Below, one piece after another: positions 21,280-27,045 of a DNA stretch of 45,044 nucleotides. The notes under the pieces are model-generated. The model saw nothing but the letters and a program-made list of their open reading frames with translations, made no database searches and was not told where the DNA came from. The stretch covers positions 1 through 45,044 of the forward strand of contig NZ_JAFFJX010000028.1 of assembly GCF_016924755.1 (NCBI RefSeq), given 5' to 3'. This DNA is from Longitalea arenae. Lineage in GTDB: Bacteria > Bacteroidota > Bacteroidia > Chitinophagales > Chitinophagaceae. Every line of letters starts with the position of its first letter. The first letter of the stretch is position 1. A program made the translations under genes and the position numbers.

Positions 21280-23118
21280 TTACTCGTCGAAATAATGTTT
21301 TAATTTTTTGAGGCGCGAAATAATGGCCCCTTTGGTGCGGCCAAAGTGCGCCGCGATCTTACTGATGGAAGTACCATTATCATAATACTCTTTAAGCTCA
21401 TCATCCTGATCGGGCGACCAGGGTTTGTAAGCGTCCTTGTTGATCTCCCTTTGTTGAAGCACATTGTAAGCCCTTTCTTTTGGCGAAGTAACGGTTGATC
21501 TTTTCTTAACGGTAGATTGTTTTAACGCGGCTCTTTCTGTTAAATAGCTATTGTTGGTAAGCTCTTTTTCCCTGGCTTTTACTTTGATGATCTGAGCAGA
21601 AACAGGAAAATCTTTTGGCACCAAGGTATCGGGGATATACAATTTGTTTTTAGTGCGGGTAATGGCCACGTACAGCAGGTTGATTTCCTCGTTGAGCCTG
21701 GCCTTATCGAAAGCTACGGTTTTGTCGCTTTTATGCTTTTCTTTAAGGTCCTTCAGTTTGCTTTCGGTGAGAAAATCGTTTACCAGGTACACCACATCGT
21801 ATTCCATTCCTTTAGAACGGTGAACGGTTGAAAAGATCATTTCGGCTTTGCTGCGGTCTTCATCGCCGGTATGCAGTTCTTTCAGTGATTTAATGATGCC
21901 ATGCACTTCATTTCCATATTCCCGAACGATTTCGATCATGGTAGCCAGCTGGTGATCTTCGGTTTTTTCTACGTATTCTTCCAGTTCGTCAATATTATTC
22001 ATAGAGCCTACCAGTTCGTCGCGGATCCGGTCACGGTTACCATTGTATAAACTCAATACATCATAAAGCGAAGCGCCATCATCGGCATAGGTATAGGAGT
22101 TGATATTTCCTTCGAAGTAGATATGCTTCACTTTGGGATTGTCAGTGATAAAATCAATGGCCTTCAGCAAAAGGCCAAGGTTCGTACGGGCAATGGTTGC
22201 TTTTACAACTTCTTTTTGCGAGGTGCCCTTACCGGTAATGGCAACCGGTTCACATTCGAACAAATGATTTTTCCAGGAGAGAATATTGGTGGCGAGATGG
22301 GCGATTTCCTGGGTAAAACGAAAACTGGTTGATAATTGTAAAGTATTGAAATTAGCTTTATCGAGCGAGTTAACGGCATGCCGCCAGGCATAGATCTGTT
22401 GATGCGTGTCGCCAACTATCACTTTAGTCGCTTTTTGCTTCATGAAAACGTCGAGCATAGCGGCAGAAGCGTCCTGGGCTTCGTCGAACAAAATATAATC
22501 GTAAGGTAGATCGGGATTGGACAACTGAAATTTCTTCAGATAAAAATCATGGGTGATCTCGATCTCCCCTCTGTCCATTTTAGCCAGCAGCAAGCGGGTG
22601 CCATCCTCGATGAATTTATAAAAAGAGCGGGCGAAAGCTTTGGCGTTTGCATCTGCAATGGTATCGAGATAGTTCAGGTCCTGCACTTTGGCTTTGTCGC
22701 TATTACAGAAATAAGCAACGAATTTGCTGATGTGGTTAGCGATCACAAACTCTGCATGTTTTTCACCATTGCTGCGGATGCTAAGGAGCTGACATATTTC
22801 ACTGTTCTTGTAGCCCTGGGCTTTTACTTTGTAATTGTGTTTGAATACGATATGTTTATAAGCGAGGGAGTGAGCCGTTTCAACCTTTGTATTGGTTAAT
22901 CCGTATTCAGCAAATTTGCGCGTAGCTTCTAATTTTACCGATTTATTAAAGGCGAGGTACAGGATTCGGGCATTGGCGGGCCGGGAAGCGGCGTATTCAA
23001 TAATGGTTGTTGTTTTACCGGAACCCGCAACCGCGTTGATGCGAAGATCCCCTTTGGAGTTAATGATAGCCGTTTGCTGATCTGTCAATACCTGTTTACC
23101 GCGACCTGACTTAGCCAT
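21280..23118 (-). CDS. UvrD/Rep-type superfamily 1 DNA helicase with C-terminal HTH
   Basis: A 612-residue SF1A helicase. Walker A is AGSGKTT at residues 31-37; motif II is DEAQD in LFDEAQDASAAML; then VGDTHQQIYAWR (motif III), LSTSFRFT (IV), STVHRSKGMEYDVVYL (V), and LLYVAITRTKNKLYI (VI). It is closest by eye to the FBH1/PcrA-like helicases. The last 50 residues (WSPDQDDELKEYYDNGTSIS, then AAHFGRTKGAIISRLKKL) form a helix-turn-helix, an added DNA-binding tail that UvrD proper lacks. It is a single-gene unit. Function is probably unwinding in recombination or repair. Confidence 0.93.
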   Translation of the reverse strand: MAKSGRGKQVLTDQQTAIINSKGDLRINAVAGSGKTTTIIEYAASRPANARILYLAFNKSVKLEATRKFAEYGLTNTKVETAHSLAYKHIVFKHNYKVKAQGYKNSEICQLLSIRSNGEKHAEFVIANHISKFVAYFCNSDKAKVQDLNYLDTIADANAKAFARSFYKFIEDGTRLLLAKMDRGEIEITHDFYLKKFQLSNPDLPYDYILFDEAQDASAAMLDVFMKQKATKVIVGDTHQQIYAWRHAVNSLDKANFNTLQLSTSFRFTQEIAHLATNILSWKNHLFECEPVAITGKGTSQKEVVKATIARTNLGLLLKAIDFITDNPKVKHIYFEGNINSYTYADDGASLYDVLSLYNGNRDRIRDELVGSMNNIDELEEYVEKTEDHQLATMIEIVREYGNEVHGIIKSLKELHTGDEDRSKAEMIFSTVHRSKGMEYDVVYLVNDFLTESKLKDLKEKHKSDKTVAFDKARLNEEINLLYVAITRTKNKLYIPDTLVPKDFPVSAQIIKVKAREKELTNNSYLTERAALKQSTVKKRSTVTSPKERAYNVLQQREINKDAYKPWSPDQDDELKEYYDNGTSISKIAAHFGRTKGAIISRLKKLKHYFDE

Positions 23119-23160: not shown

Positions 23161-23273
23161 AACCAGGCTGCGAAGATGACCGATTTTTGGAATTTGAACA
23201 AGAATTCAGCGTTTAAAGTTGCCAGTCCAAAACATCTGGCGGGTTACTGACAACACCGGTGGTTTTGCACTTT

Positions 23274-23940
23274 GGCCGGTCGGAAATTTTACGCCACCAA
23301 TTGGGTTCAGGCCATTCGCGACCGGCATTTGACACCGCCGATGGGGATGGAGCGATCGACGACCGGCATTTGACACCGCCCACAGAGATGGAGCGATTGC
23401 CCGGTCGGAATTTCAGATCACCGGCCGGGTTTGAGCCTTCACCCGTCAAAAATTTCAGATCACCGATCAATTTGGAGCCTTCGCCCACTAATTTGACGTC
23501 GCCTTCGAGCAGTCGGGGGACGAAATCGATCAACCCGATGACGCCACCCATCTTGTTCATGAGATTTCCGATCATTTCGCAGCCTCCGCCTGTTGGGATG
23601 AAGACCTTTCCGACCGGGATGAACCCAACGCCTATCGGGAATAAGGCGTCTCCCAGCAGGCAACAGCCTTCACCGGTTAGGTCGGTGCTCTCTCCCATCG
23701 GTTGTCCAGTCCCAACCCGCTCGGTGGATGATCTCTCCCGTCTGGACGGAGCCTTCGCCCACAGGGCGGAAGATATTTTGTATCGGGCGCAGCCTTTCCC
23801 CCGCGGGAAGAAGGCTTCTCGCACCCGGTGGATGCTATTTTCGATCGGTTGTCAGTCTTCGTCGCGCTGGCGGATGATATTTCCGATGCGGTAAAAGCCT
23901 TATCGCATCGGCAGGGTGACATGCTGATTTTGCTAATAGC
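23274..23940. repeat. Array of about thirty degenerate 21-bp repeats
   Basis: Consecutive units align at exact 21-bp steps from about 23316 to 23714 and then with 19-22 bp steps to about 23940. Examples: 23589 CCTGTTGGGATGAAGACCTT, 23610 CCGACCGGGATGAACCCAAC, 23631 CCTATCGGGAATAAGGCGTC. A consensus is roughly CC(g/c)ATCGG then GATGAAG then CCTTT. In the left part a 42-bp higher-order unit is visible (GACCGGCATTTGACACCG twice, AATTTCAGATCACCG twice). Since 21 is a multiple of three, both strands stay open for about 200 codons, giving heptad proteins (GDLKFLT GEGSNPA on minus). Coding status is therefore unclear. Confidence 0.85.
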
Positions 23941-24079: not shown

Positions 24080-24118
24080 CACCCCATTATTTCAAGCACG
24101 CTAAGTGAGGATTAATGG

Positions 24119-24157
24119 GAGCGTTGAATTCATATCCGCCAGTGGGCGGAATGGGGG
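24119..24157 (+). repeat. tRNA-Met-derived fragment with palindrome
   Basis: GAGCGTTGAATTCAT (compare GAGCGTTGGATTCAT of the intact tRNA) is followed by ATCCGCCAGTGGGCGGA, a palindrome variant at 24135-24150. The preceding 20 nt are only loosely similar to a D arm and the T arm is missing. A degraded partial copy. Confidence 0.65.
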
Positions 24158-24166
24158 CAACGAAAC

Positions 24167-24240
24167 GGCGGGATAGCTCAGGTGGTTAGAGCGTTGGATT
24201 CATATCCGCCAGCCGGCGGACTCGGGTTCGACCGGATCAC
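24167..24240 (+). pseudogene. tRNA-Met pseudogene invaded by a 16-bp palindrome
   Basis: The first 37 nt (24167-24203) are identical to the 5' half of the intact tRNA-Met at 24273, ending in GGATTCAT with the CAT anticodon. Then ATCCGCCAGCCGGCGGA replaces the 11 nt that should supply the 3' anticodon stem and variable loop. CTCGGGTTC of the T arm follows, but the remaining T stem and acceptor strand are diverged (GACCGGATCACTAG). No cloverleaf can form, so it is not a working tRNA. Confidence 0.85.
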
Positions 24241-24272
24241 TAGAAATCTCAGAACGGTCTTAAAACATAATT

Positions 24273-24346
24273 GGCGGGATAGCTCAGGTGGTTAGAGCGT
24301 TGGATTCATAACCCAAAGGTCTCGGGTTCAACTCCCGATCCCGCTA
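24273..24346 (+). tRNA. tRNA-Met (anticodon CAT)
   Basis: A 74-nt cloverleaf. Acceptor GGCGGGA/TCCCGCT (G1-T72 wobble), D stem GCTC/GAGC, anticodon stem TTGGA/CCCAA with A31-C39 mismatched, loop TTCATAA with CAT, T stem TCGGG/CCCGA with loop TTCAACT, discriminator A. The CCA end is not encoded. CAT could also be an initiator or a lysidine-modified Ile tRNA. The first pair being G-T and no three G-C pairs in the anticodon stem argue against initiator; Met elongator is favoured over Ile2 with moderate certainty. A strong terminator follows 7 nt later. Confidence 0.95.
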
Positions 24347-24353
24347 CACTGAC

Positions 24354-24391
24354 AAATGGCTTAACGATAGTTAGGCCATTTTGATTTTTTT
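24354..24391 (+). terminator. Terminator of the tRNA-Met gene
   Basis: Twelve-bp stem AAATGGCTTAAC / GTTAGGCCATTT (one G-T pair), loop GATA, followed by TTGATTTTTTT. Confidence 0.92.
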
Positions 24392-24743
24392 CAAACTTTT
24401 TTATCTTCCGAATAGTAAAACTGACACCTTTAAGTGTTTCTATGTAAAACCATTTAGCCCGCACAGGTTAAATCGGGAACTGCTAGTCAGTTAATCATTG
24501 CCTTTACTCCTCATTCACGTTCACATTTCCTAAAAAACCATTGCATTTGTTCGAAGGCTGGCACTCATCACAATTTGTGACTGCGGAGGCGAAGCATTGT
24601 CTATTAGAATAAGAATATTTGCTTTGGAAGATAAGTAAGAGATAAAATTGCCAGATATGCATAACTTGAGTATGTCTGTTGGATCTGTCTTTTTCAATAA
24701 ATGTAATTATAGTGTAAGGTGGAGCTAGCGAGTTTAAAAAGAA

Positions 24744-25094
24744 TCAATCAATTTCAACTATAGCAACATCAGAAGTTATTAAAATTTTTACTCCTTGGAC
24801 AACTCCTGCATGAATTCGTTCCCATAATTGCCGACTACCCATGTTACCAACCCTGATATTGATTAATTTCGGCGGAGTTCCTAACCGGTTAATCAGTTCA
24901 GGAAAATCAGCATCTTTGGAAATTAAGATTACCCTTCCTTGTTTTTTTGCTTTCTCGTAAATTTCTCTATCCGTTAGAAAGTGTAAAGAAAGGCTATAAG
25001 AAGATTTGACGACCAAACCGGTTTGTTCAGCCATCCATTTGGCAATTATTGGAGAAATATTGGTATCGATCCAGATTTCCCAATCAGGCTGCAT
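24744..25094 (-). CDS. DUF5615 PIN-like toxin candidate
   Basis: A 116-residue protein of the DUF5615 family (PF18480), a PIN-like fold. It begins WEIWIDTNISPIIAKWMAEQ, with the conserved Asp of the first strand, then the signature VILISKDADFPELINRLGTP, and RVGNMGS near the centre. Relatives are the presumed ribonuclease half of toxin-antitoxin pairs in which the antitoxin is a DUF433 protein. The upstream gene at 25084-25317 is exactly that, overlapping by 11 nt. It lies between the tRNA-Met gene and a repeat of the tRNA 3' end, so it is probably mobile cargo. Confidence 0.9.
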   Translation of the reverse strand: MQPDWEIWIDTNISPIIAKWMAEQTGLVVKSSYSLSLHFLTDREIYEKAKKQGRVILISKDADFPELINRLGTPPKLINIRVGNMGSRQLWERIHAGVVQGVKILITSDVAIVEID

Positions 25095-25317
25095 GAATGA
25101 CTACTGTGTTTTTGATTTTCATTGAAGCATATAGGAGGGCTGCTGCAATATCCTGCTTTTCGAGAACAGGATGTTGCTCAAGAATTTCTGCCTCGGTAAG
25201 ACCACTGGACAGTAATTCCAATATATCACTTACAGGAAAACGCAAACCACGTATCGTGGGTTTGCCTCCCATTAGCCCAGGCTGTATAGTAATTCTATCT
25301 AAAAGTGGCGAAGTCAT
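25084..25317 (-). CDS. DUF433 antitoxin candidate
   Basis: A 77-residue DUF433 protein (PF04255), a winged-helix DNA-binding fold of antitoxin type. It starts MTSPLLDRITIQPGLMGGKP and carries the family core ITIQPGLMGGKPTIRGLRFP with the DILELLSSGLTEAEILEQHP helix pair. It would bind its own promoter and neutralise the downstream DUF5615 protein. The 11-nt overlap (stop within the toxin start) indicates translational coupling, with the antitoxin first as usual. The pair resembles the VapBC-like arrangement, but activity is inferred from family and gene order only. Confidence 0.9.
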   Translation of the reverse strand: MTSPLLDRITIQPGLMGGKPTIRGLRFPVSDILELLSSGLTEAEILEQHPVLEKQDIAAALLYASMKIKNTVVIHAA

Positions 25318-25578
25318 TTATATAAAATTTATCCTCGTATACAAATCTAACATAAAAGTAAGATCTGTGTACCCTAGAAGTGTAAAAAGCATTAATGTAT
25401 TGGCTGTCAGTGTCTTAATGCAATCGCCATCTCTCAATTTAACTGTAATTGTATTTAATTTTGACAGATATGGCAAATTGAAGGGAACTGGTTGGCCGGA
25501 AATATACTTTTAAGTTCTTTGTCAGTCAGACAAACTGTCAAATCAATCAAATCCTGTATTAATCGGTTAGACTTTTCG

Positions 25579-25627
25579 CCCCATCCCGCTACTCGAAAAG
25601 GCTTCAATATTTGGAGCCTTTTTTATT
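25579..25627 (+). repeat. tRNA-Met 3' end remnant plus terminator
   Basis: CCCCATCCCGCTA at 25579-25591 repeats the acceptor end of the tRNA-Met. Four nt later AAAAGGCTTCAA, loop TATT, TGGAGCCTTTTTT forms a terminator. The upstream 5' half is absent. It marks the far side of the segment that holds the DUF433/DUF5615 pair. Confidence 0.75.
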
Positions 25628-25667
25628 TGGTCATTATCGTTCAGTTAGCGTTACGCTGCTGCCAATT

Positions 25668-25688
25668 AGGTTCAACTCCCATTCCCTC
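25668..25688 (+). repeat. tRNA T-arm remnant
   Basis: GGTTCAACTCCCATTCCC matches the T loop and 3' strand of the tRNA-Met (GGTTCAACTCCCGATCCC) with two changes. A bare fragment. Confidence 0.55.
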
Positions 25689-25752
25689 GGACAGGATAAC
25701 CTTTCTTAGAAAAGAATAGTCAGCCTGTATTATGCAAATGACTTTGAAGAGT

Positions 25753-25959
25753 TTAGGGTCTGTTACCTAGCACACCAACATTTATTGATATATGTTTGTC
25801 TTGTCCGCTATAAAAAACGTGAAATTGGTCAATATTTGTGACATACGCAGCAACAATATAATGTGTAGCGCTATTGGAAAGAGCAACGAAATTAAACTCT
25901 TTTGATTTTAGGAAGGTAACGGTTTCTTTTGCATAAACATCAGCGGTTATTTTCGCTGT
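25753..25959 (-). pseudogene. 5'-truncated coding remnant, unknown family
   Basis: An open stretch of 68 codons with no usable start codon, bounded upstream by TGA at 25960-25962 and ending with TAA at 25753-25755. The translation looks protein-like: ADVYAKETVTFLKSKEFNFV, then NIDQFHVFYSGQDKHISINV and GVLGNRP at the end. I do not recognise the family. The lack of a start, and placement among tRNA debris, suggest the 3' end of a gene that was cut by rearrangement. Confidence 0.5.
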
Positions 25960-26127
25960 TCAGCTTCAGTTCCGGCGTGACGGGAACACTGATGAACAAC
26001 AGAAATAAGTATCAGCTATAAACATTAATTTGGCTTCGGCTTCTGCAGAGCGGCGCTATTATCTTGACTGCAGCAATACTGAGAGTGGATAGTCCTTTTA
26101 CCAAAACACGCTTTAAACCTACAACAT

Positions 26128-26618
26128 ATGAAGAAAAAATTTTTCCCCTGCAAGTATAGTCTTTGCTTCTTTATGACAATGCTTTTCACTTTTTCCGTTC
26201 AATTCTTAACGGCACAATCAACAAGTGCTCAGGAGAAAATGCAATTAGGGACTTGTTGGCGCGGTTTTACGAAGGTTGGAATACTCATGATGTGGAAAAG
26301 ATGGTATCTGTATATGCTGACGATATAGACCATATCAATGTTTTTGGGGAATGGCATAAAGGCAAGCAAGTGATGAAAGAAGCCCTTGCTCAGTTTCATG
26401 CAGGACCAGCAAAGAATAGCCAGAAAGCATACACCATCGAAAAGATAAGATTTGTAAAGCCTGATGTGGCAGTAGTACAAGTGCGCTCAATAAGTACCGT
26501 AGGCAATATCGGCACATATGTCCTAGACAAGGCGACCGGTAAATGGCTGGTAGTTAGCTTTACAAATGTCGGGTATGAACTGAAGCCAACAGAAACAAAA
26601 AGTTTCGGAAATGAGTAG
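26128..26618 (+). pseudogene. Secreted SnoaL/DUF4440-like protein, frameshifted
   Basis: The ATG at 26128 opens a clear signal peptide (MKKKFFPCKYSLCFFMTMLF, continuing to FLTAQSTSAQE) that soon runs into nonsense in that frame. The other frame carries, from about 26240, a good SnoaL/DUF4440-type body: NAIRDLLARFYEGWNTHDVE, then VYADDIDHINVFGEWHKG, through LDKATGKWLVVSFTNVG. The two halves fit as one protein of about 160 residues if one base is missing near CAGGAGAAAATG (26231-26242). Either a real -1 frameshift or an assembly error at the A-run. The family includes steroid isomerase-like and unknown enzymes. Nearby debris favours a dead gene. Confidence 0.75.
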
Positions 26619-26621
26619 ACA

Positions 26622-26643
26622 GGCAGTCGATCGGCTGACTGCC
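26622..26643 (+). terminator. Weak hairpin after the SnoaL-like gene
   Basis: GGCAGTC / GACTGCC, seven base pairs with a GATCGGCT loop, 4 nt past the stop codon. No T-run follows, so termination is uncertain. Confidence 0.4.
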
Positions 26644-26699
26644 GAGCTTATAAGTCGCTAAAAGCAATTAAGTCGGCTAGTAACTGGTTCTGGAATTGT

Positions 26700-26746
26700 C
26701 CCCATCCCGCTACAAGGTAAAGGCTTCAGATTTGAAGCCTTTTTTA
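26700..26746 (+). repeat. tRNA-Met 3' end remnant plus terminator (second)
   Basis: CCCCATCCCGCTA at 26700-26712 again copies the acceptor end of the tRNA-Met. AAAGGCTTCA, loop GATT, TGAAGCCTTTTTT at 26719-26745 is a terminator close in sequence to the one at 25596. The 5' part is missing. Confidence 0.75.
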
Positions 26747-26755
26747 TTTGATCAG

Positions 26756-26847
26756 CGCGTTGGATTCATATCCGCCAGCTGGCGGACTCGGGTTCAACTC
26801 CCGATCCCGCTACTAAGACAAGGCTTCACGGAAGTGAGGCCTTTTTT
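26756..26847 (+). pseudogene. tRNA-Met pseudogene with perfect palindrome, plus terminator
   Basis: Starts GCGCGTTGGATTCAT (anticodon stem and CAT), then ATCCGCCAGCTGGCGGA with the perfect 16-bp palindrome at 26771-26786, then CTCGGGTTCAACTCCCGATC and CCGCTA, identical to the intact tRNA 3' half. The acceptor 5' strand and D arm are absent. AAGGCTTCAC, loop GGAA, GTGAGGCCTTTTTT at 26820-26847 is its terminator. The palindrome takes the place of the same 11 nt as at 24205. Confidence 0.8.
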
Positions 26848-26854
26848 ATTTAAG

Positions 26855-26920
26855 TGTGGGTTCAACTCCCATCCCGGGTAGATCAAAGAATTTCAGCGTG
26901 GGTTCATATCCGCCAGCTGG
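26855..26920 (+). repeat. Further tRNA T-arm and palindrome debris
   Basis: GTGTGGGTTCAACTCCCATC (T arm) then CCGGGTAG, followed at 26897 by GCGTGGGTTCATATCCGCCA with a truncated palindrome (TCCGCCAGCTGG at 26909-26920). The palindrome is cut at its centre and joined directly to the gene fragment that follows. Confidence 0.65.
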
Positions 26921-27045
26921 CTATTTTTAGCGAATATGATGTTCACCTGTGCAATCTTTACTCTGAACAAGATATCATTGAAGATGTAGCCGAGGTATTT
27001 TTTGAAGACGGTTATATGGCAGAAAAATTGAACCTGATCCTATGA
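26920..27045 (+). pseudogene. 3' gene fragment joined to the palindrome
   Basis: 41 codons plus stop, reading AIFSEYDVHLCNLYSEQDII, then EDVAEVFFEDGYMAEKLNLIL. The sequence is acidic and helix-like and looks like the C-terminus of a real protein, but I do not recognise it. There is no native start: the 5' side ends abruptly in the half-palindrome, as expected from a recombination junction. Confidence 0.5.

Follow-up and report, generated by a model that had tools for sequence, protein, structure and literature searches.

Why should several partial copies of one tRNA gene carry the same short palindrome at the same place? The question is raised by a stretch of 45,044 nucleotides from Longitalea arenae (hereafter the window), which is the entire contig C19 of a 7.28-Mb genome in 40 contigs. 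The window holds an intact tRNA-Met gene with two partial copies upstream and several pieces downstream, and palindromes lie within partial copies of the elongator type, three of them full (24135, 24205, 26771) and one truncated (26909). It seems fairly probable that these copies derive from an element specific to tRNA genes, organized around a small GIY-YIG nuclease gene, and are what remains of it once that gene is gone. We read this element as homing-like and about 315-450 bp in size, and the array in the window as a derivative that lacks the nuclease gene. A complete element is composed of an intact tRNA gene, a nuclease open reading frame (ORF) on the same strand, and at least one partial tRNA copy in which an arm is replaced or split by a hairpin.

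A first-pass annotation of the window had described a palindrome that replaces 11 nt in tRNA-Met copies with the same junctions on both sides, and direct reading bears this out. In the copies at 24167-24232 and 26754-26813, ATCCGCC(AGCC or AGCT)GGCGGA stands where the intact tRNA-Met has AACCCAAAGGT, and in both GATTCAT precedes the palindrome and CTCGGG follows it. The copy at 24113-24156, with AGTG at the palindrome centre, has the left junction only; in the copy at 26890-26921 the palindrome is preceded by GGTTCAT and ends after 13 of its 16 bases. The same annotation had suggested a small mobile or recombinogenic palindrome that targets or grew within the anticodon loop, or else hairpin-mediated repair. 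Precise and repeated replacement is confirmed, and the array is also unstable: in seven genus-mates, where the locus has the same UvrD-like gene as anchor, the number of partial copies runs from none to several. The palindrome, however, is not the whole unit, because in related loci it comes together with a GIY-YIG ORF and an intact tRNA, and it is not confined to the anticodon loop, since the hairpin sits in the D or T arm of other tRNAs.

A small GIY-YIG gene beside tRNA genes

In a typical locus an intact tRNA flanks the ORF on one side and partial copies flank it on the other; in these copies a GC-rich hairpin replaces or splits the D, anticodon or T arm. Two layouts occur, namely tRNA, ORF and hairpin copy, or hairpin copy, ORF and tRNA. 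In the stretches from the pattern scan described below, a common order, all on the same strand, is 5' partial copies with the hairpin, the intact tRNA, the ORF, and then the hairpin with the 3' half of the tRNA; many loci hold only part of the full order. The unit is sometimes found in tandem, each repeat of about 315-450 bp comprising the GIY-YIG ORF, a tRNA piece and a terminator, and arrays of five units are seen in single-contig genomes. Assembly chimeras, which the first-pass annotation had considered as a source of the copies, are unlikely since the layout recurs across many assemblies, single-contig ones included. This anatomy, with its adjacency to a tRNA gene and its paired hairpin, is what the loci themselves present.

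A protein search with the Phe-type ORF matched 73 of 117 genomes of the window's family. We examined 90 GIY-YIG loci of this family (30 loci and 60 regions, a subset of the matches from that search, one of them the Phe locus of L. arenae itself). ARAGORN placed a tRNA within 500 nt of the ORF in 81 of the 90, in 80 cases within 300 nt, and ORF and tRNA share the strand in all 81. A tRNA fragment was found in eight of the other nine loci (blastn, E 1e-3). The tRNAs beside the ORFs include those for Phe, Met, Arg, Leu, Lys, Glu, Val, Asp, Asn, Ala and Pro. Across Bacteroidota, 249 of 395 genomes had a match at E 1e-10 or better when queried with an alignment (A2) built solely of ORFs from the window's family. 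Among 46 phylum loci, which were the 30 top matches and 16 regions picked by hand from the listing, a same-strand tRNA lies within 500 nt in 43, or in 40 of 43 distinct places once the duplicates L288/L316, L307/L319 and L287/L321 are merged; four of the places (L285, L286, L296 and L302) were already among the earlier loci. The three loci without a tRNA are L283 and L291, both truncated by the end of a contig, and L296, where a hairpin-bearing tRNA 3' half follows the ORF.

Genome contigs were also scanned with TCATATCCGCCAGYTGGCGGA, a pattern that includes TCATA and the whole stem and is therefore biased to tRNA-Met and perfect hairpins. We obtained 113 matches in 85 stretches, 106 of them in a tRNA context, for which either a T-loop motif had to lie within 20 nt or an intact tRNA-Met on the same strand within 2 kb; this loose rule can be passed by chance, as judged by eye at L116 and L136. 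An intact tRNA-Met lies on the same strand within 2 kb of a match in 64 of the 85 stretches, and a GIY-YIG ORF is present in 40. The clearest exceptions to tRNA context are L136 and repeats in one Candidatus Neomarinimicrobiota genome. In that genome a non-tRNA repeat with TTCATATCCGCCAGYTGGCGGATGACACTA was observed at L116, L124, L133, L138 and L144.

The first-pass annotation had called for a genome-wide count of the palindrome, and in L. arenae TCCGCCNNNNGGCGGA occurs 22 times, compared with none for a reversed control and about 0.19 expected from the base composition of the window; it is thus commoner than chance. Inspection of 17 of the 22 places put five in duplicated tRNA genes (three on C19 and one each on C34 and C1) and at least 12 outside tRNA genes. 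On C34, a degenerate duplicate that bears the palindrome and has the same terminator comes after an intact tRNA-Met of the other type; a small GIY-YIG ORF is next, and then a second palindrome-bearing piece with one mismatch. On C1, a tRNA-Cys duplicate has the palindrome in its D arm. A GIY-YIG ORF on C11 lies between an intact tRNA-Phe and a copy with a hairpin in place of the D arm, and this locus has two further hairpin copies upstream. On C12, a broken GIY-YIG ORF adjoins a tRNA-Pro whose upstream partial copy has a different hairpin replacing the anticodon arm. Of the five GIY-YIG matches in the genome, three are small ORFs, with tRNA-Met, tRNA-Phe and tRNA-Pro as their respective neighbors. 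Also on C11, compact tRNA arrays with partial tRNAs were seen at L364 and L365, one of them with a like palindrome just upstream.

The first-pass annotation would have taken palindromes mainly at non-tRNA sites with unrelated junctions as evidence against its proposal, and in part this is what is seen: at least 12 of the 22 places in the L. arenae genome lie outside tRNA genes. Of the scan matches, which include the left junction TCATA, 106 of 113 are in a tRNA context by the loose rule.

The ORF encodes a single GIY-YIG domain, of about 80-95 residues in the Met type; the one protein scanned matched PF01541 with 63.8 bits (cut-off 22.6), and its AlphaFold model has a mean predicted local distance difference test (pLDDT) score of 94.6. 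Residues Y5, G18, R26, H30 and E63 are invariant and Y16 is nearly so in 33 Met-type sequences; in 20 diverse sequences Y16, G18, R26, H30 and E63 are invariant, and Y5 is nearly so. We take these positions to fit the GIY-YIG active site. By sequence, the matches in PDB are two UPF0213 proteins, which score best, and SLX1. The ratio of nonsynonymous to synonymous substitution rates (dN/dS) is 0.05-0.44 with a median of 0.16 in the 36 of 472 pairs that are unsaturated (the other 436, saturated or undefined, were left out). The ORF is under purifying selection.

Hairpin pairing and hairpin class

We collected 184 two-sided partial copies from 96 loci, a list that, like the next one, includes a few native arms and has some places twice; the left border of the insert is in the anticodon region in 86, in the T region in 53 and in the D region in 45. 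At least five terminal base pairs form in 131 of these inserts, compared with 3.5% of shuffles. Among 37 anticodon-region inserts (25 loci) chosen by their tRNA flanks alone, 32-35 pair at each of positions 1-6. Several positions in this set show differing Watson-Crick pairs, so pairing has been maintained through change. Many stems have TCC at the start and GGA at the end, and some partial copies retain a loop resembling the native anticodon loop. In tRNA-Phe of the genus-mate G120 (L331), a single copy has one hairpin in the D arm and another, different one in the T arm.

On the nuclease tree, loci of one hairpin class group together. Over 61 loci the class changes 11 times on the GIY tree compared with 31-37 times in shuffles, and tRNA type changes 23 times compared with 42-46, although the two counts are not like for like because there are fewer hairpin classes than tRNA types (the ranges are from the 20 printed of 60 shuffles). 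For this test Phe was assigned to TCCGCC by hand, GCCCCGC was merged into TCCCGC, TCCGCC includes TTCCGC, TCCCGA includes CCCCGA, and rows without an assigned hairpin or with an ambiguous tRNA were omitted. One and the same tRNA carries different hairpins depending on the nuclease clade, as seen for Met, Arg-TCT, Leu-CAA, Asp and Arg-ACG.

The Met and Phe loci in the genus

The Met locus is anchored by the same UvrD-like gene in seven genus-mates (tblastn); that of G117 (L199) lacks this anchor in its stretch and was omitted from the synteny count. Judging by the stretches seen, the locus is empty in G122, has only an upstream copy in G124, has downstream copies in G120, G118 and G119, and has both kinds in G121 and G071. 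At the Phe locus, L. arenae has the ORF with hairpin copies, whereas in G120 there is a hairpin copy but no ORF, and in G124 a fragment; tblastn found no ORF beside the tRNA in the Phe stretches from nine genus-mates. Empty, remnant and filled states exist at one locus, in a comparison that for Phe does not separate gain from loss. In G117 a Phe-type ORF-hairpin unit lies about 30 kb off, behind a displaced tRNA 3' part, which would fit a later island insertion. The tRNA-Phe of G117 and G119 seems also to be host to an integrative island with a shared GGTCTAACATAGGTCTAACA motif (L355, L333, L337).

In the window, positions 24167-24207 are 98% identical to the 5' part of the intact tRNA-Met, and 24269-24381 are 93% identical to locus L194, the basis for likening the terminator-like sequence at 24348..24395 to that of the G122 empty site. 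The copy at 26754..26851 comprises the tRNA from about nt 22, the hairpin at 26771-26786 (centre AGCT), the full 3' half and a terminator, and its unit is found in tandem in genus-mates. Repeat finding added four tRNA-Met 3'-end fragments that the first-pass annotation had not listed, at about 25579, 25669, 26699 and 26858.

Features of the tRNA-Met array and its anchor gene in the window
Feature	Position	Strand	Basis
Degenerate upstream partial tRNA-Met copy; hairpin 24135-24150, centre AGTG	24113..24156	+	sequence, repeat finding
Upstream partial copy: tRNA 5' part, hairpin 24205-24220 (centre AGCC), T-arm start	24167..24232	+	sequence
Intact tRNA-Met(CAT), elongator type by eye	24273..24347	+	ARAGORN; Rfam tRNA, 65.8 bits at 24273-24346
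Terminator-like sequence behind the intact tRNA, resembling that of the G122 empty site	24348..24395	+	
Remnant of downstream copy: tRNA 3' end and terminator	25579..25630	+	repeat families D3, D7
Isolated T-arm fragment	25669..25686	+	repeat family D4
Remnant of downstream copy: tRNA 3' end and terminator	26699..26749	+	repeat families D3, D7
Downstream partial copy	26754..26851	+	sequence and repeat comparison
T-arm and 3'-end fragment	26858..26876	+	weak match (E 1.24), repeat family D4
Fragment: left junction and truncated hairpin (26909-26921)	26890..26921	+	repeat families D2, D9; sequence
UvrD-like helicase gene, anchor of the syntenic locus, outside the element	21280..23118	-	Pfam; tblastn in genus-mates

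Other features were observed around the array. At 24744-25513, a DUF5615 (PIN-like) ORF on the minus strand (Pfam) has the intact tRNA-Met on one side and the distant 3'-half copies on the other; by eye, a small putative partner gene adjoins it, and the pair may be a toxin-antitoxin system. A SnoaL-like ORF (26163-26618) sits between two remnants of the array. Upstream of the array, 23213-23894 holds GC-rich degenerate repeats with long opposing ORFs, and Rfam reports a group II intron match on the minus strand at the contig end (44919-44995).

Proposed mechanism, alternatives and implications

We propose that the nuclease nicks or cuts the tRNA gene, or else the hairpin, possibly in single-stranded form. 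In the repair that would follow, with a copy of the element as template, the ORF and hairpin would go in and a working tRNA would be restored, which would let the host survive. The hairpin copies could act as homology arms without the arm that is cut, and they may be the recognition site of the nuclease itself. Unequal recombination between copies would make arrays grow and shrink and could yield arrays of hairpin copies that have no ORF, like that in the window. A nuclease lineage would, on this proposal, parasitize a tRNA gene. More tentatively still, the one-gene elements across Bacteroidota could act as a natural cleave-and-rescue system on essential tRNA genes. Each nuclease lineage, with a DNA hairpin of its own and one or a few tRNAs to which it is bound, would break the native tRNA gene at one arm and supply a working tRNA copy adjacent to the nuclease gene; we regard this as possible and somewhat doubtful. 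The combination of tRNA, hairpin and GIY-YIG gene is not described among the matches listed in our search of the open-access literature, a scope that leaves out subscription papers and preprints.

A close comparison is SegB, a free-standing homing endonuclease of T-even phages that is of the GIY-YIG type, is linked to tRNA genes and is reported to cut inside tRNA genes, with amplification via short homologies proposed to follow the cut (PMC13096335). Both systems link a GIY-YIG nuclease to tRNA genes, but SegB is found in phages, whereas the elements described here are in bacterial genomes and their lineages are tied to single tRNA genes; hairpin-marked partial tRNA copies are not mentioned in the passages of that paper considered here. 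The working tRNA in our loci retains the arm that is lost in the copies, and this is the weak point of a plain homing model. The retained arm could be reconciled with homing by low expression, by the hairpin being the recognized site or by inefficient cutting of the resident allele, as PMC13096335 argues for SegB.

Several observations weigh against a homing-like element. We infer cleavage, its target and the way of spread rather than observe them, and the immunity to the nuclease of the intact tRNA beside the ORF is not accounted for. At least half of the hairpins of the L. arenae genome, by the count given above, are outside tRNA genes, and one of the 90 family loci (L184) lacks any tRNA sequence (blastn, E 1e-3). 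No GIY-YIG ORF was found in the window (tblastn, E 1e-3, two queries) or in the Met-locus stretches of nine genus-mates. The Met GIY tree is weakly resolved, and too weak to separate vertical from horizontal descent; host order is clustered on it (12 changes, shuffled mean 16.9), and much of the descent may therefore be vertical. Phage, plasmid and viral collections gave no match to the ORF at the thresholds used (Met-type queries only), and these were set aside as carriers. We also compared the terminators behind the intact tRNA and behind the 3'-half copy in 42 Met loci. In 18 they are unrelated by score, which fits an element carrying its own terminator (three of these loci are from one species, Niabella ginsengisoli). 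In 20, their similarity exceeds that of 99% of between-locus pairs, a result that local duplication would fit as well, and in four the likeness is intermediate. The unequal numbers of hairpin classes and tRNA types likewise weaken the tree comparison.

A different role for the same protein has to be considered. The hairpin could be the cognate site of an Ssn/UPF0213-type, site-specific single-strand nuclease that serves DNA uptake or recombination and not homing. That hairpin classes cluster on the nuclease tree across tRNA types, that the best-scoring solved structures are two UPF0213 proteins and that some hairpins are away from tRNA genes would all agree with this. Taken alone, such a role leaves unexplained both the hairpins within pieces of the neighboring tRNA and the position of the ORF between intact and broken copies, and we consider it unlikely. 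The proteins share with UPF0213 and Ssn the small single GIY-YIG domain; tRNA-copy flanks and an intact tRNA within the unit are not known for Ssn.

Distinctly less probable is a role at the RNA level, with hairpin-bearing tRNA-like transcripts serving as decoys or regulators and the GIY-YIG protein acting on tRNA or its precursors. The copies are on the tRNA strand, their hairpins pair, and the native-like anticodon loop of some would suit such a role; on the other hand, GIY-YIG domains are known chiefly as DNA nucleases and the copies are truncated in many differing ways.

It appears very improbable that tRNA genes simply duplicated and decayed, or that the copies are attachment sites left behind by integrase islands, and that a common terminator-like hairpin came to be there by chance. 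The tRNA-Phe of the genus seems to be also an island host and some pieces in the window are plain fragments, but an identical junction recurs across Bacteroidota, inserts chosen by their flanks still pair with compensatory changes, and the ORF, itself under purifying selection, is on the strand of the tRNA in every locus with one. Conserved junctions and pairing disfavor plain decay in particular. Islands that target tRNA genes also leave a displaced tRNA piece and keep a working tRNA; the units described here differ in their size of about 315-450 bp, their one small nuclease ORF and the hairpin in the displaced copy. Judged by unit size and contents, an integrase gene is not part of the unit, although no integrase search was made.

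Least credible is a repetitive extragenic palindromic (REP)-like hairpin moved into tRNA copies by a Y1 (RAYT-type) transposase, an idea behind the suggestion of the first-pass annotation to look for REP-associated transposases: the genome does have repeats of the palindrome and two Y1_Tnp matches, but the surrounding 3.2-3.3 kb of either match contain other short palindromes and no TCCGCC..GGCGGA, and hairpin class clusters on the GIY-YIG tree. REP/RAYT and Rickettsia palindromic elements are likewise palindromes repeated in a genome; the hairpin described here differs from both in that it replaces or splits an arm of a duplicated tRNA and clusters with GIY-YIG lineage.

If the homing-like element is real, many Bacteroidota have tRNA genes that carry selfish elements of a single gene; the nuclease gene measures about 250 bp and the unit about 315-450 bp, and we know of no smaller selfish elements. 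Many small GIY-YIG proteins of Bacteroidota would gain a context and a likely target, and the link between hairpin class and nuclease clade would provide a set of natural nuclease-site pairs open to direct test. Recurrent empty and filled sites would make the spread measurable. Finally, such elements would account for a class of puzzling tRNA pseudogenes and palindromes, those of the window included.

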